Shown here in pieces: positions 39,430-46,747 of a stretch of DNA of 64,000 nt (the first letter of the stretch is position 1; each line of letters begins with the position of its first letter). Both the position numbers and the translations under genes were made by a program. The stretch is taken from contig NZ_LN623543.1 of assembly GCF_000826065.2 (NCBI RefSeq), forward strand, positions 1 to 64,000, given 5' to 3'. The notes under the pieces are model-generated. The model saw only the letters and a program-made list of their open reading frames with translations, was not told the DNA's origin and searched no databases. The stretch is from Tessaracoccus massiliensis (GTDB taxonomy: Bacteria; Actinomycetota; Actinomycetes; Propionibacteriales; Propionibacteriaceae).

Positions 39430-42400
39430 GAGGCACCTCCGGCCAGCGGACGGTAGAGTTCCCAGGCCCACGCCTGAAAGGCGCTCGGCTGGCCATTGGC
39501 AGGGTCAGCGGGGCGCGGCGGATCCTCAAAGAGTTCGCCTACATCAGCGGAGTAGAAGAGCCGCCATGCCGGGCCTGCCCCGCTCCACCTGCCACGGAAG
39601 TCCCCGATCGGCCCGGTCCACTGGGCCGGGGTGAATCTGTCCGCCGCATGCTCTAGGGCGTAGGTGAGGGCGGGAGCTGCAGGCACGGGCAGCAGACGGT
39701 GCTGCGCCTGAGCGTAGGCCGCGATGATCGTGGTCAGGTGCTCGAGAGCCTCGGCTTGGGGCAGTGGCGCCACCTCCCACTGCTCAGTCCCGATCGCGAA
39801 ATTGGTGTTGCGGTTCTTCACGAAGTGGTGGAGCTTGGCGGGCACCTGCATGCCCTGGGCCCCCAGGGCCAGGCTCTCGAGCCAGGGCCGCAGGATTCCG
39901 GTTCTGTTCCGGCTGGGGTTGGCGGCCAGCGCGAGCCCAGACCGGGTGCGCACCTCATCGACCAGCCGGACATGCTGCGCTGCGTCCAGGCTGACCGTGA
40001 GCTCGATGACCTGGGTATCGACTGCGCCGGACCATTCCCCCCATGCGCTCTTCCAGAGTTGGGTGGCCTCGTGCTTGGCCGCACGGAAGGCCGCGTCGCC
40101 GATGGCTTGTGGCGGCAGGTCCTCACGCTGACGGAAGTAGTCCTCCACGGACTCCAGGCTGGTGCCGGTCTTCCAGGAATCAACCAGCGCGTTGACGAGG
40201 CGCCAGTTCTCCAGGCCACCCACCTCAAGGGGCAGTTCATCGGTGACCTGCGGCTCGTCGTACAGGGCGATGCCTCCCGCAGCGCGCAGGAATGTCTTGG
40301 CCGGATCCGTCAGAAACCGTTCCAGCTGGGTGAGCGTGACCTGCGTCGGGGCAGGGCCCAGTGGCCGGGCGGTGGCCTCTCTTCTGCGTCTGGCCGCGAG
40401 GGGGGCTCCGGACAGGGATGAGGAGCGGCGTGCCTGCGCGCCCGCAAAGGCAGGGGCGTCGAAGCTGGGATGAGCTCCGAAGTTGCCGGGCGAGGTTGCC
40501 GTCGGCGGATGCCCGATGGGCTGCTCCGCGACGCCGAGTTGCTCGAGGAGCCAACTCACGGCCACCGGCACGGACGCGCGGTCATTGGTTCGCTGTGAGC
40601 GTGCCTGCCGCACGATCACAAGCTTGTCCGCGCAGCGGGCATGGGTGAGCAGTTGCTGGAGGCGACGCCCGGGCAGGTCTGGGGCCCTGCTGCCAAGGTC
40701 TACCGAATCAGGGAGGTGACCTGCGCGGCCCGGCACCACGTCATCGGTGACGCCCAGCATGGCGACGAGCTTGAACTCCACGTGCTGCAGCTCACCCAGT
40801 GGGATCAGCTGCATCGTGCCGTTGCCGGCGGCGACGCGCGCCCGGGGCGGGGATGCGGCCTCCTCCAGTAGAAGCGCGAACTCGTGCGGGGTGAGGTTGG
40901 TGGGGTGCCCCTGGTGGTCCGCCTCGAAGCGGGCCAACACCGCGAGGGCGTGGAGCTCCTGCCACTGGTCCGCGTGGGGGAGTGCGATCAGCGCCTCCAT
41001 CGCCCGCCGGGCACGTTGGACCCAGCCCGACACTGTGGTGGGCGCCTGGGTGGTGGCAACCACGCGGCGCAGCCGGGCGAGGACCTCGCACAGGGACCCC
41101 ACGAGCGTGAGATCCGAGGCGGTGACCGCCTCCGTGCCTGAGAGCCCCAACCCGGCGTCGGTGCCGGGGGCGACGGCCAAGCCGATGAGCAGCCTGTCGA
41201 TGCCGCGCGTCCAGGTGTTCTGATCCACTCCTGCCAGGTTGAAGGCGGCACGGTGGCCGGCATCCAGTCCCCACCTGATGCCCGCCCCGGAGACCAGCTC
41301 CACCACCGCCCGGCGGTCCGTGAGGTTCCAGCGGTGCGCGATGGGCGGGCTCAGCAGAAGCTCGACGGTGTCGCTCGCGGTGGCGCGGGACGACCCCAGC
41401 CGGATGAGGCGCACGAGGAGGTGGAGGACGGGATTGGTCTCGAAGGCGCCGGGCGGTTGCAGCCGCAGCGTGCGGCCCGGGTGAGCCTCGTCATCTGCGG
41501 GGGCGAACGCGGCCTCCAGGAGGCCCGCGTAGCGCTCGGCCTGGGGGCACACGATCACGACGTCCCGGGGCTGGAGCGTGTCATCCTCGGCGAAGGCGCG
41601 GGTTAGCTCATCGCGCAGTACCTCCACCTGCCTGGCTTCTCCGTGCGAATCGTGCAGGGACACCGCAGGCGCGGGCGCCGCCTCCCCCGGCAGGTCCAGC
41701 GACTCTGAGGCCAGTGCCTGGGCCCAGGCCTCGCCCGGTGACCCGGACGGCTGCAGAATGGTCAGACCGTGGCCCTCTGCCAGCGCCTGGATGATGGAGG
41801 CCTGGGGAGCGGTCAGGTGATCCACGGCCAGCACGAAGGTGGGCATGGTGTCCTGAGCCGCCGCGTCGAGCATGTCGTCGAGGATGGCGAGCGGATCGAG
41901 TTCAAGGGCGGAGGCGACGCGGCGGAACAGCTCTGGCTGCCAGGCGAGCTCGTCCGGGAGAGGCTTCGCATCCAGGCCCGCGTCTGAGCCCTCGAGCCAC
42001 TGGGCAAGGAGCTCGGGCGCCTGGTCCAGGTAGCTGCGCAACAACCTGGCGACACGCATGGCCGTGGCCCGACGACGGCCGGGGCGTGCGTCATCCGCGG
42101 CCAGTGCGCGCCTCACCAGGGGGTGGGACACCGACGTCAGGGCGTCCGCGACGGCGATGTCCAGTGGGGTGCCCCGCCAGCGAGAGCGATCTCTTCCGAC
42201 GCCGGCCCGCTCCGCGATGTGGCGCATCAGATCGGTGGGGGACAGGTACTCGATGCCGGCCGAGATCCCCAACCGGGCTGCCACCTCCTGCCCGACGACG
42301 CGGCCGGTGGCGCGCGTCGAGACCACTACCCGCAGCCTGCGGAACGGATCTGTGGCGGCACCGGTGAGAAGCTCCGCGAGATGGTCGATCAGGGCGGCCC

Positions 42401-42431
42401 ATCGGGCCCCTCTCACCAGTCTCACGGTCAT
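39426..42431 (-). CDS. recC: Exodeoxyribonuclease V gamma chain, RecC
   Basis: 1001 residues. RecC is the Chi-recognising subunit, a catalytically dead SF1 helicase plus nuclease fold. Diagnostic stretches are YLSPTDLMRHIAERAG-like (here EYLSPTDLMRHIAE), AQWLEGSDAG, HFVLAVDHLTAPQ-like (here FVLAVDHLTAPQASIIQALAEGHG), and CPQAERYAGLLEAAF, HPGRTLRLQ, FLTDPAKTFLRA. The start is set at ATG 42431 because TAGGGT (42444 down to 42439) lies exactly 7 bases before it, indicating a leaderless transcript; the longer frame runs antisense into uvrD2. First gene of the recCBD operon. Confidence 0.94.
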   Translation of the reverse strand: MTVRLVRGARWAALIDHLAELLTGAATDPFRRLRVVVSTRATGRVVGQEVAARLGISAGIEYLSPTDLMRHIAERAGVGRDRSRWRGTPLDIAVADALTSVSHPLVRRALAADDARPGRRRATAMRVARLLRSYLDQAPELLAQWLEGSDAGLDAKPLPDELAWQPELFRRVASALELDPLAILDDMLDAAAQDTMPTFVLAVDHLTAPQASIIQALAEGHGLTILQPSGSPGEAWAQALASESLDLPGEAAPAPAVSLHDSHGEARQVEVLRDELTRAFAEDDTLQPRDVVIVCPQAERYAGLLEAAFAPADDEAHPGRTLRLQPPGAFETNPVLHLLVRLIRLGSSRATASDTVELLLSPPIAHRWNLTDRRAVVELVSGAGIRWGLDAGHRAAFNLAGVDQNTWTRGIDRLLIGLAVAPGTDAGLGLSGTEAVTASDLTLVGSLCEVLARLRRVVATTQAPTTVSGWVQRARRAMEALIALPHADQWQELHALAVLARFEADHQGHPTNLTPHEFALLLEEAASPPRARVAAGNGTMQLIPLGELQHVEFKLVAMLGVTDDVVPGRAGHLPDSVDLGSRAPDLPGRRLQQLLTHARCADKLVIVRQARSQRTNDRASVPVAVSWLLEQLGVAEQPIGHPPTATSPGNFGAHPSFDAPAFAGAQARRSSSLSGAPLAARRRREATARPLGPAPTQVTLTQLERFLTDPAKTFLRAAGGIALYDEPQVTDELPLEVGGLENWRLVNALVDSWKTGTSLESVEDYFRQREDLPPQAIGDAAFRAAKHEATQLWKSAWGEWSGAVDTQVIELTVSLDAAQHVRLVDEVRTRSGLALAANPSRNRTGILRPWLESLALGAQGMQVPAKLHHFVKNRNTNFAIGTEQWEVAPLPQAEALEHLTTIIAAYAQAQHRLLPVPAAPALTYALEHAADRFTPAQWTGPIGDFRGRWSGAGPAWRLFYSADVGELFEDPPRPADPANGQPSAFQAWAWELYRPLAGGAS

Positions 42432-42498
42432 GGCAGCCACCCTACTGGTGGTCACCGACAATTCTGTTTTGTCCGTGCGGGGCGGTATGAATGGGGCC

Positions 42499-44520
42499 GT
42501 GAGCAACCACATCCTCGATGCCCTTGACCCCGAGCAGCGCAACGTCGCCACGCTGCTGGACGCCCCCGTCGTGGTGCTCGCAGGGGCGGGGACGGGCAAG
42601 ACGCGCGCGATCACCCATCGCATCGCGCACGCCGTCAGCGAGGGGAGATACTCGCCCACGGCCACCCTCGCCGTCACCTTCACCACGCGGGCGGCCGGTG
42701 AGATGCGCGCCCGGTTGGCTGGGCTCGGGGTACGTGGCGCGCAGGCGCGCACCATCCACTCCGCTGCGCTGCGCCAATGCCAGTTCTTCTGGCCCAAGGC
42801 CTACGGGGTCGCCTTTCCAGCCGTGGCGGAGAACACCTTCGGGCTGGTCGCGCGCGCCACGCACCAGGTGCTGGGCAGCTCAGACACCGCCCTTGTGCGT
42901 GATCTCGACGCGGAGATCTCCTGGGCCAAGACGAGCAACGTCACGCCCGCGCAGTACGTGGAGATGGCGGAGGGGCGCTCGGTGAACGGGGCGAGCGCTG
43001 CCCAGGTGGCCAACGTGATGACGCTCTACGAGAAGGCCAAGCTCACCGAGGGGACGGTCGATTTCAACGACATCCTGCTGTGCAATGCCGTGCTGCTCAG
43101 CGAACACGAGGAGATGGCCGCCACGATCCGGGGCGCCTACCGGCATTTCGTGGTGGATGAGTACCAGGACGTCTCCGCGCTTCAGCACCGGCTCATCAAG
43201 TTGTGGGTCGACGGCCGTCCGGATGTGTGCGTGGTGGGGGACCCCAACCAGGCCATCCACTCTTTTGCGGGCGCGGACGCCGGCTACCTCCTACGGTTCG
43301 CCGATGAGTACGACGATGCACGCACGGTCCGGTTGATGCGCAACTACCGCTCCTCGCCGGAGGTGATCGCTGCCGCAAACAAGATCCTGCGGGTCCGCAG
43401 CGGCGCACCCGGGGCGCTGCAGGCGACCCAACCTGCCGGGCCTGCCCCTTCATTCCACGGTGCGCCTGATGAGACGGCCGAATCCGCGGACGTGGCCGAG
43501 TGGTTGCGAGCGCAGCACGCAGCGGGCACCAGATGGTCCGAGCTGGCTGTCCTCTACCGCATCAATGCACAGTCGCCGTCCTTGGAGGCTGCGCTCACCG
43601 AGCGTGGCATCCCGTACACGGTGCGGGGCACGGAGCGGTTCTACGACAGGGCCGAGGTCCGCCAGGCCATCGTGGAGTTCGGGAGGTTCACCCAGCGCGA
43701 CGACAGCGCCCCGCCCACCGATGTGCTCGGTGCCGTGCTCACCGGTCTCGGCTGGAAGCCGGAGGCGCCCTCGGGGCAGGGCAGGCAGCGGGAGCGGTGG
43801 GAGTCCCTCGCGGCGCTGCGCACCATGCTCGCCGAGGAGGCCGAGAAGCGTGAAGAGTGGACCGCGCATGAGGCCATGACGTGGCTGCAGGAGCGCGCCA
43901 CCTGGCAGGCGGCGCCCGTCGCGGAGGCCGTCACCCTCTCCACGTTGCACGCCGCCAAGGGCCTCGAATGGGATGACGTGGCCATCGTCGGTGTCAGGGA
44001 GGGCATGATCCCCTTCGTGTTGGCGCAGGAGGAACCGGCGCTCTCGGAGGAGCGCCGGCTTCTCTACGTGGGGTTCACCCGCGCACGGCGGGCGCTGCGC
44101 GTCAGTTGGGCGGCCTCACGCGGCAAGGCCACCCGTTCCCGGTTCATCGCGGATCAGGTGTCAGGCCCCATCACGGTGGGCAAACCCCGGCAGACCACCT
44201 CGGTGCGTTCACGTACCTGCCGGGTCTGTGGCAACCCGCTGCACAGCGCAGCAGAGCGCAAGCTGAGCAGGCACGAGGACTGCGAGGTGGCCTACGACGA
44301 GGAACTGTTCGAGGCGCTGCGGGACTGGCGAAAGCGGGTGGCCGAGGAGACGAAGATGCCTGCCTTCGTGGTGTTCACTGATGCCACGCTGCAGGCCATC
44401 GCCGAGGCCGTGCCCACCACGCCGAGCGAACTGTTGAAGCTGCCGGGGATCGGCCAGTCGAAGCTGACCAGGTACGGCGACGGCGCGCTGGAGGTGATCA
44501 GGGCCCATCAGGCGAACTGA
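42499..44520 (+). CDS. uvrD2: UvrD2-type ATP-dependent DNA helicase with HRDC domain
   Basis: 673 residues. SF1A helicase: Walker A AGAGTGKT (residues 28-35), FTTRAAGEMRARL, Walker B FVVDEYQDVSALQ, GDPNQAIHSFAGAD, LMRNYRSSPEVI, TLSTLHAAKGLEWDDV and LLYVGFTRARRALR. It then has a Cys-rich linker CRVCG ... HEDC (mycobacterial UvrD2 has a tetracysteine motif at this place; here one position is His) and a C-terminal HRDC domain (FVVFTDATLQAIAEAVPTTPSELLKLPGIGQSK). The frame also has ATG 42487, but TATGAA (42486-42491) is followed after 7 bases by GTG 42499, so the ATG is likely part of the -10 element and GTG the leaderless start. Divergent from recC. Confidence 0.93.
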   Translation: MSNHILDALDPEQRNVATLLDAPVVVLAGAGTGKTRAITHRIAHAVSEGRYSPTATLAVTFTTRAAGEMRARLAGLGVRGAQARTIHSAALRQCQFFWPKAYGVAFPAVAENTFGLVARATHQVLGSSDTALVRDLDAEISWAKTSNVTPAQYVEMAEGRSVNGASAAQVANVMTLYEKAKLTEGTVDFNDILLCNAVLLSEHEEMAATIRGAYRHFVVDEYQDVSALQHRLIKLWVDGRPDVCVVGDPNQAIHSFAGADAGYLLRFADEYDDARTVRLMRNYRSSPEVIAAANKILRVRSGAPGALQATQPAGPAPSFHGAPDETAESADVAEWLRAQHAAGTRWSELAVLYRINAQSPSLEAALTERGIPYTVRGTERFYDRAEVRQAIVEFGRFTQRDDSAPPTDVLGAVLTGLGWKPEAPSGQGRQRERWESLAALRTMLAEEAEKREEWTAHEAMTWLQERATWQAAPVAEAVTLSTLHAAKGLEWDDVAIVGVREGMIPFVLAQEEPALSEERRLLYVGFTRARRALRVSWAASRGKATRSRFIADQVSGPITVGKPRQTTSVRSRTCRVCGNPLHSAAERKLSRHEDCEVAYDEELFEALRDWRKRVAEETKMPAFVVFTDATLQAIAEAVPTTPSELLKLPGIGQSKLTRYGDGALEVIRAHQAN

Positions 44521-45046
44521 GCCCATCGTCGCGGCAGCCGCGCGTCCTGCAGCCGCTGCGCCATGGCCAGGTCAACAGGCTGAGGCCCGGATCGTCGACG
44601 TGCCACGTCCAACTGGAGCCCATGAGATCCGTGGTGCCCTGTTGCACCACGGCCAATGCCTGGAGCGCCGCCCAACTGGCTGCCCAGGCCGTGAGGTGCA
44701 GCGCGCCGCCGCGGTGGGGAGGCCGCCGGTCTGCCGAGGCGAGGCATCCCGGGCAAGGCCCGAAGCCCGGGCTCACGAAGGGGCCCACGGAGGCGCCCTT
44801 GGAGTGCCACCACACATGCAGGGCGCCGGTTTCCGCGCCGTAGATCTCAGATTCGAGGATGGGGTTGGCTCCCGGTGGCCAGGCCAGGATGGCCAGCGCC
44901 GCCCCGGACGTGCTGCCAGGGGACTGCAGCGCGGCGCGTGGCGTGGTCGTCTTGGCGACGAGGCCTGCCCGCTGGATGCCCGCTGCAATGGGGGCGGTGC
45001 GGGTGGGGGCGCCGAGGATCATCAGGATGGGAGTGGCCGACATCAT
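44498..45046 (-). CDS. Short ThiF / cyclodehydratase-like protein
   Basis: 182 residues. The C-terminal half resembles the actinobacterial proteins labelled TOMM leader-binding or bacteriocin biosynthesis cyclodehydratase: GPFVSPGFGPCPGCLASADR, TAWAASWAALQALAVVQQGT, SWTWHVDDPGLSLLTWPWRSGC and the end CRTRGC. Four Cys in two pairs (CPGC and the C-terminal CRTRGC) could hold a zinc ion, as in E1-like ThiF folds. The N-terminal adenylation half is short, and no nucleotide loop is clear. Homologues lie near uvrD2 and DUF2342 metalloprotease genes in other actinobacteria. No precursor peptide or dehydrogenase gene is nearby, so a role in peptide modification is not supported. The start is uncertain: ATG 45046, 45043 or GTG 45052. 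The last 23 bp overlap uvrD2 tail to tail. Confidence 0.7.
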   Translation of the reverse strand: MMSATPILMILGAPTRTAPIAAGIQRAGLVAKTTTPRAALQSPGSTSGAALAILAWPPGANPILESEIYGAETGALHVWWHSKGASVGPFVSPGFGPCPGCLASADRRPPHRGGALHLTAWAASWAALQALAVVQQGTTDLMGSSWTWHVDDPGLSLLTWPWRSGCRTRGCRDDGLSSPDGP

Positions 45047-45097
45047 GGTCACACTGTGATCGCCAGAGGTGATCACGCGCCGGAATCGGTCGCCGAC

Positions 45098-45148
45098 GGA
45101 CAACACCTCACCGCAAACGGACAACACTTCCAGTCGCTGGGACAACAC
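45098..45148. repeat. Three 9-bp direct repeats with exact 21-bp period
   Basis: GGACAACAC occurs at 45098-45106, 45119-45127 and 45140-45148. The spacing of 21 bp is two helical turns, so the sites face the same side of DNA. They lie 52-102 bases upstream of the minus-strand gene that starts at 45046. It may be an operator, or the leftover end of a transposable element with several transposase sites. Confidence 0.8.
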
Positions 45149-45303
45149 CCTGTGGCGCGAGACGGGCGGTAGCCGCAGGGGAGCGCTGACAATGCCCAGA
45201 AAAGCGGAGTCCCGGCTGCCTGATCCGCCTTCCCCTGCGAATCGACATCCGGGACTCTCGGGACTGAGTTAACCGTGCAACAGCGTCCGCGTCAAGCAGT
45301 TGC

Positions 45304-46635
45304 TCAGCCCTCGTCGCCGAGCAGTTTGCGCAACTCGGCGTCCATCTCATCCTCCTGCGGGTCAGCGTCATCGTGGCTCCGGGTGAAGGACAGCGGATCC
45401 TCCAGGTGCGCCTTGGTGGGAAGCAGATCCGGGTGGCCCCAGACCGCGTCGCGTCCTTCGAGGCCCCGCTCATGCTCCACTGCGGCCCAGAGGTTCTTAG
45501 CGTCGCGCACGAGCCGCGGGCTGAGATCCAGCCCGAGCAGTTCCTTGAACACCCCGGTCACCGGCGTGGCAGAGGCGCGGCGACGGTGGAGGACCTCCTC
45601 CAACTGGGGGGCGTTCGGCATCCAGGCGGCGCTGGCCCTACCCGCCACGTGGTCGACCCACCCCTCGACCAGAGCCAGGAGCACCTCCAGCCGCTCCAGA
45701 ATCTCCATCTGGGTCTGGGTGCTGGCGGGCTGGAAGAAGGAACCGCGGACCTGCTCGCCCACGGCCACCATGTCCTCCATGGTGAGCTGCTCCAGGTTGT
45801 CCGGGCGTAGTGACTCAGCGATCGCGTCGAAATCGATGGTGATCTCTCGCGCGAAGTGCGCCAGGAGCGCGCTCAACTGGGGCGAGAGCCATCCGACGGC
45901 GTGGAACAGCCGTTGGCGGGCGGCCTCGCGGAGCAGAAGATACAAGGTCACGTCGGTGTCGCTGGCATCCAGATCCCGGGTGAACTGGGCCACGTTCGCG
46001 GGCACCATCACGACGTCGGAGGAGCCGAGCAGGTTGAACCCGAGCTCGGTCCCGGTCAGGATGTCGCCCGCGACCCGGGAGAGCTCGCGCTTGAGCCGGT
46101 CACGATAGATCAACGAGGCCGACTGCTTCATCATGGGCCCCATCATCTGGGCCAACGGCTGCAACTCGTCGCCCTGTTCGGCGACGCTGCCGCGCTGGAG
46201 TGCATCAGCCAGGCCGTCGATGATCGGTTCGATGACGGACCGCCAGCCATCGCCGGTCTCGTCCAGCCACGTGCCCCTGGTGATCGCACGAGCGGGACGG
46301 CCGGTCTCTGAGAACGTGGTGGCGGGTGTGAGCCAGGTTTGTGCCAACCTTTCAGCGTCGACGATGGCTGCACGTTCCTCAGGGCGGAGCGCGGGGTCTC
46401 CGCCGGCCTCGGCAGCTTGGTGCTTCGCGGCGGTCAGAGTGGTGCGCCATGCAGCGTCCGGGTCGCGATCCGCCGGGGTCATGCCGAACATGAACCCACC
46501 CCCGGCCGACTGCATCTTCTGGACCTGCGCGACGAGGTCCTCGAAGTTGAGGTTCTCGGCGTCTCCCAGCCCGAGTTGTTCGAGCATCTTGCGCAACTGT
46601 TCGAAGTCGAAGGGACCGAACGACGGGTTGGACAT
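45304..46635 (-). CDS. Zinc-dependent metalloprotease-like protein (DUF2342 family)
   Basis: 443 residues. The beginning FGPFDFEQLRKMLEQLGLG ... GGGFMFGMTPADRDPD and the later VALLEGWVDHV-like segment (here VLLALVEGWVDHVAG), RRRRASATPVTGVFKELLGLDLSPRLVRDAKNLWAAVEHERGLEGRDAVWGHPDLLPT are typical of the TIGR03624/DUF2342 family often annotated as zinc-dependent metalloprotease. Proteolysis has not been read from a clear HExxH here (the segment reads EGWVDH), so the activity is uncertain. AGGAGGAAATTG gives a strong ribosome site for ATG 46635; the earlier ATG is rejected. Divergent from the Lon-like gene. Confidence 0.85.
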   Translation of the reverse strand: MSNPSFGPFDFEQLRKMLEQLGLGDAENLNFEDLVAQVQKMQSAGGGFMFGMTPADRDPDAAWRTTLTAAKHQAAEAGGDPALRPEERAAIVDAERLAQTWLTPATTFSETGRPARAITRGTWLDETGDGWRSVIEPIIDGLADALQRGSVAEQGDELQPLAQMMGPMMKQSASLIYRDRLKRELSRVAGDILTGTELGFNLLGSSDVVMVPANVAQFTRDLDASDTDVTLYLLLREAARQRLFHAVGWLSPQLSALLAHFAREITIDFDAIAESLRPDNLEQLTMEDMVAVGEQVRGSFFQPASTQTQMEILERLEVLLALVEGWVDHVAGRASAAWMPNAPQLEEVLHRRRASATPVTGVFKELLGLDLSPRLVRDAKNLWAAVEHERGLEGRDAVWGHPDLLPTKAHLEDPLSFTRSHDDADPQEDEMDAELRKLLGDEG

Positions 46636-46747
46636 CAATTTCCTCCTGTGCACCGTTACAGGCCATTGTTCCGCATGGGGCAAGCGCCGCGCGACGGCTT
46701 GTCGCCGCTTGGTAATGTGACCACAGCCTCAGGAGAAGGGAGAAGGT

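Follow-up and report, generated by a model that had tools for sequence, protein, structure and literature searches.

What is the function of three perfect, evenly spaced repeats that lie just upstream of a gene in Tessaracoccus massiliensis? Within the window, by which we mean the entire 64,000-nucleotide stretch of DNA analyzed, GGACAACAC occurs at 45098-45106, 45119-45127 and 45140-45148 with an exact 21-bp period, and the perfect triplication named in the original prediction matches exactly at all three sites. On the strand of the adjoining minus-strand gene, the array reads as GTGTTGTCC separated by 12-bp spacers, with the promoter-distal (first) copy at 45140-45148, the middle copy at 45119-45127, 21 bp from each neighbor, and the promoter-proximal (last) copy at 45098-45106. 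The gene had been placed 52 bases away; it is indeed there, at a corrected distance of 51 nt between the last copy and its start codon (ATG, 45046-45044). A two-copy pattern with up to three mismatches matched the window three times, compared to 0.08 matches expected, and none of 100 shuffled windows contained three matches. Between the array and the gene lies a -10-like hexamer, CACAGT (NANNNT; 45053-45058, minus strand), at -12 to -7 of the ATG, which would form part of a predicted leaderless promoter. An activator-controlled operator array would be expected to show copies in helical phase and at a constant distance from the start downstream of them, and the sequence has both features.

The adjoining gene (44498-45046, minus strand) encodes a protein of 182 amino acids and belongs to a family in which four cysteines are invariant among 20 aligned members. 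Its sole profile match is TIGR03882 (TOMM leader peptide-binding), with 14.2 bits against a cut-off of 36.9, and the best family member tried reached 32.7 bits. Because all scores fall below the cut-off, this name serves as a label only. A UvrD-type helicase with an HRDC domain (listed frame 42058-44520, plus strand; the true start is probably further in) converges on the gene, and the end of a Zincin_2 metallopeptidase-like gene (45304-46683, minus strand) lies upstream of the array. In each of the ten retrieved Tessaracoccus loci in which the gene has an array, the array sits at this place, flanked by the helicase C-terminus in ten out of ten and, on the other side, by the zincin in nine; in the tenth (L066), the contig ends there. 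Among 12 loci from seven other genera, the helicase is present in 11, the zincin in eight and both in seven. The check proposed at the outset, namely to look for the array at the same place in relatives, thus had a positive outcome, with gene order kept.

When up to three mismatches were allowed, the 3.2-Mb genome that contains the window yielded two further convincing arrays. One (L001) has three copies, of which one carries a mismatch, and is followed at 51 nt by an AbiEi-like gene (PADLOC AbiEi, E = 9e-9; no Pfam match above cut-off). The other (L005) has four copies and is followed, likewise at 51 nt, by a DUF6459 gene (70.7 bits, cut-off 27), beside which lies a gene whose end is SecA-like by eye. 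At L001, near-identical palindromic sequence (TGGCAGATCTGTCGC...GGATCTGCCA) at positions 425-480 and 1555-1615 of that locus flanks the gene together with its array, and the AbiEi-like gene looks as if it resides in a movable or repeat-flanked cassette.

Across the Propionibacteriaceae, 63 of 197 genomes, representing 19 of 29 genera, contain exact pairs of copies, and the reversed control gave none. Within the genus, a pair is found in 23 of 39 genomes at up to one mismatch (one match in the control) and in 34 at up to two (four control matches); five genus genomes contain no pair even with two mismatches. The element is found in a Cutibacterium genome, too. In the rest of the order, two of 81 genomes have exact pairs: L254, in which the spacers agree (8.5 of 12 bases), and L255, in which the array is in frame with a protein that is hydrolase-like by eye. 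The rest of the phylum sample yielded exact pairs in three of 395 genomes, two of them at the same site in one genus, and the spacers of these three matches do not agree. Among 22 three-copy stretches in a collection of named genomes, 18 belong to Propionibacteriaceae or actinomycete bins. The remaining four (Methanosarcina, a gammaproteobacterium, Chitinophaga and Lachnospiraceae) and one viral contig are tandem duplications, with spacers that agree as well (8 to 12 of 12 bases), in contrast to the arrays described here; these unrelated duplications in other organisms (L137, L142, L149, L151 and L152) have the same 21-bp period. Among the papers listed in literature searches, which include 40 titles out of 291 and 357 papers containing the bare letters, none pointed to such an element, and most subscription journals lay outside their reach, so that absence from print is not implied.

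Next to the conserved place of the array, a second line of support for an operator comes from its distance to many other genes. We collected 139 arrays from 66 Propionibacteriaceae genomes, with duplicates removed; this is not an unselected sample, as it leaves out about 17 exact-pair places, one single-mismatch array of G014 and at least 21 two-mismatch matches, and the two-mismatch matches it does contain are mainly those resembling variants. Start codons of long frames lie at offsets of 50, 51, 52 and 53 nt from 14, 32, 20 and 2 arrays, respectively (68 in total), and no other single offset exceeds seven, in a histogram that does not represent unselected rates. A smaller rise at offsets 70 to 75 (26 in all) would fit a last copy that has been lost or has decayed. 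Alignment of 67 upstream regions shows 58 NANNNT hexamers that start at -13 or -12, in keeping with the place of CACAGT in the window, and eight that start elsewhere. The base at -1 is a C in 85% of these regions, and ribosome-binding-site words show no excess (seven of 67, versus 6.7 in shuffled sequences). By these features the upstream regions look leaderless, and their predicted -10 elements are poor.

The genes next to the arrays recur as well. Eight families adjoin 127 of the 139 arrays (again not an unselected rate), with 12 arrays outside them. DUF6459 genes (29 arrays), AbiEi-like genes (27, plus one reversed) and the family of the window's gene 44498-45046 (23) have the most; the others are a sigma-like family (15, reversed), sigma-70-like genes (nine), DUF222/HNH-type genes (nine, plus four reversed), the DUF4244 pilin operon (seven) and a small HTH protein (three). 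At L072 of genome G082 (positions 1530-2830), which we counted under DUF6459 and not under sigma-70, a sigma-70-like frame (tblastn E = 5.6e-18) comes after the DUF6459 frame that the array precedes, a second sign of a link between these two families. The 12 arrays outside the eight families include L205, with an AbiEi-like gene at +93 by eye, L215, with a DUF222-like gene at +52 by eye, and L217 of genome G004. There, a two-copy array with two mismatches (positions 1400-1900) stands 52 nt before a small secreted, cysteine-containing peptide of 112 amino acids that has no Pfam match and looks bacteriocin-like by eye.

The identity of these targets rests on profile and structural matches of differing depth. 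The sigma-70-like genes match sigma regions 2 and 4, and the pilin matches DUF4244 above the cut-off; a TadE protein in the pilin operon was named by eye, its piece having no Pfam match. The pilin operon carries the array in seven genomes and the sigma-70-like gene in nine, neither of which is the case in the genome of the window. Since none of the seven pilin arrays has a start codon at 50-53, a leader must be assumed there. For the DUF222/HNH-type genes, L120 has an HNH match above the cut-off and the L218 piece a DUF222 match below it. Five genes of this type (L047, L216, L218, L219 and L221) combine the array with a PafBC-like (RecA-independent) promoter that immediately precedes the ATG. 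The model of one AbiEi-like protein (pLDDT 90.3, pTM 0.84) has a single PDB match with E < 0.001, the AbiEi antitoxin 6y8q. Conserved residues of the protein (D225 and E236-x-D238) hint at a nuclease domain, and the DUF559 matches of such proteins remain below the cut-off. In the sigma-like family, 20 of 30 fetched loci hold the array, always upstream of the gene and always reversed. A region-4 match above the cut-off was obtained for one of three members, and the profile match to the sigma-70-like protein of L043 is weak (E = 0.00088, probability 23%). The model of this family (pLDDT 82.2, pTM 0.54) has no PDB match below 0.001, yet the 50 PDB matches listed all represent sigma factors, alone or in complex.

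Upon comparison of the copies, we noticed that different targets of a genome share their variants of the motif. About 10 of the 21 bp are informative, with GTGTTGTCC as the core, and within arrays the spacers share 4.6 of 12 bases, that is, they are not conserved. In some Tessaracoccus the motif is GTGTTGTCA/G, and in G004 it is mostly GTGTTGCCC. The mean difference between targets of the same genome is 0.139, versus 0.311 after shuffling within target families (one of 5000 shuffles as low), and a second comparison gave 0.091 versus 0.197 (0 of 5000), both uncorrected for the relatedness of the genomes. A common factor would predict such shared drift among targets that are unrelated. Together, the recurring position and targets point to a common regulator of a small gene set.

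We therefore consider it very probable, from sequence evidence, that the array is an operator bound cooperatively by one putative DNA-binding protein of the Propionibacteriaceae, most likely an activator. In this mechanism, each of the like sites in the row would be taken by one subunit of a sequence-specific protein. Because the copies are 21 bp apart, the subunits would sit on the same face of the helix, which makes cooperative binding probable; one copy would be bound per two helical turns, upstream of a weak leaderless promoter. Some 51 bp separate the last copy from the predicted start of a leaderless transcript, and the -10 element there is poor; activation, presumably through recruitment of RNA polymerase, is therefore the most likely role of the protein. 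The original prediction of an operator with same-face spacing and cooperative binding that controls the minus-strand gene finds support in these patterns. The reversed arrays before the sigma-like family and some DUF222/HNH-type genes count against this explanation, as do the start codons of the pilin genes, which lie outside 50-53, the 12 arrays with no assigned target and the five genus genomes that lack a pair. None of the candidates considered for the regulator (LytTR proteins, the HTH protein of L076 and sigma-like family A1) is universal. For the small HTH protein of L076, five of 39 genus genomes gave a weak match (best E = 8.4e-5), and that of the window gave none. Of 97 Propionibacteriaceae genomes, 75 match sigma-like family A1, 59 of them with E < 1e-33; with 30 candidates scored per genome, so that a divergent copy may be missed, there was no match in five of six sampled Tessaracoccus, including the window's, a weak one in the sixth, and none in all six genomes of genus g17.

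The same operator array could instead be bound by a protein that mainly represses, for example an AbiEi-like protein that targets its own promoter as well as others. AbiEi antitoxins are DNA-binding autorepressors, 27 arrays precede AbiEi-like genes, and the modeled AbiEi-like protein resembles the antitoxin structure. Furthermore, in four loci with a reversed array, the nearest copy and the start codon are 32-33 nt apart, and a protein bound there could block the promoter. By contrast, the predicted -35 region lies downstream of the copies of forward arrays, a placement typical of activators, the -10 elements predicted are poor, and AbiEi-like targets are confined to 15 of 66 genomes. Taken together, we regard repression as unlikely.

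The arrays could also belong to the PafBC DNA-damage response, the promoter consensus of which is given as tTGTCRgtg, 8 nt, TannnT (PMC5656591). TTGTC is common to both motifs, and five of eight DUF222/HNH-type forward-array regions also contain a PafBC-like promoter (TTGTCR-type, 8 nt to TAnnnT). However, the PafBC element is a single box beside the -10, whereas the array is phased and lies at about -52 and further upstream, and the window's upstream region has no such box by eye. This makes membership in that response decidedly improbable. In its geometry the array resembles LytTR-type operators: in Streptococcus mutans, the HdrR/BrsR operators are described as 9-bp direct repeats 12 bp apart just upstream of the promoter (PMC6193735), and the array has this same repeat and spacer length. 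Yet its sequence is unlike the published repeats, it has up to five copies and several targets genome-wide, and its distance to the assumed -35 would be about 15 bp rather than 10. A match to the LytTR domain (PF04397) was obtained in five of 39 genus genomes and not in that of the window, rendering a LytTR-type regulator very improbable. Another direct-repeat operator from the Propionibacteriaceae, that of PolR in Microlunatus phosphovorus, consists of GTTCAC repeats (PMC6754071), and differs in its repeat, its 11-bp period and its targets. Some transposable elements have short direct repeats near their ends, but that the array is a surviving transposon end with several transposase sites, the alternative originally offered, is hardly credible and is refuted by synteny: its position is orthologous in eight genera and not random, its distance to start codons is fixed, its spacers are unconserved, no inverted partner lies within 44500-45400, and no transposase accompanies it.

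An operator for a common activator raises the question of what its targets do together. The pilin and sigma targets of some genomes make a pilus or DNA-uptake program possible. Competence cascades can run through a sigma factor, as ComE-ComX does. A broader reading, tentative and in our estimate rather doubtful, is that the arrays form the first layer of a family-wide DNA-handling and pilus program under a putative master activator. This activator would act on a sigma-70-like factor in several Tessaracoccus and another sigma-like one in many other genera, as well as on the DUF4244 pilin operon, on nuclease-like proteins (AbiEi/DUF559-like and DUF222/HNH-type) and on one genome's small secreted peptide. 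The ComE-ComX-type cascade, as outlined in PMC8467076, is alike in its sigma factor and pilin targets; it differs in that the array is absent upstream of comEA/comEC. All 12 Tessaracoccus genomes searched for it contain comEC, and no pair was found upstream of comEA/comEC in these 12 (up to three mismatches of 16, both strands, 3 kb, or 1.3 kb in one), which argues against direct control of the uptake channel, and we rejected comEA/comEC as a target. A 2026 paper (PMC12849477) states that neither the signals nor the regulators of competence have been identified in the actinobacterium Micrococcus luteus. If the broader reading were true, the arrays would mark a counterpart of ComE-ComX and offer an entry point to competence control in actinobacteria. 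The element itself links several conserved uncharacterized genes to sigma factors and a pilin operon within a single putative regulon, and, being recognizable by eye in Propionibacteriaceae genomes, it may serve as bait for finding the regulator.
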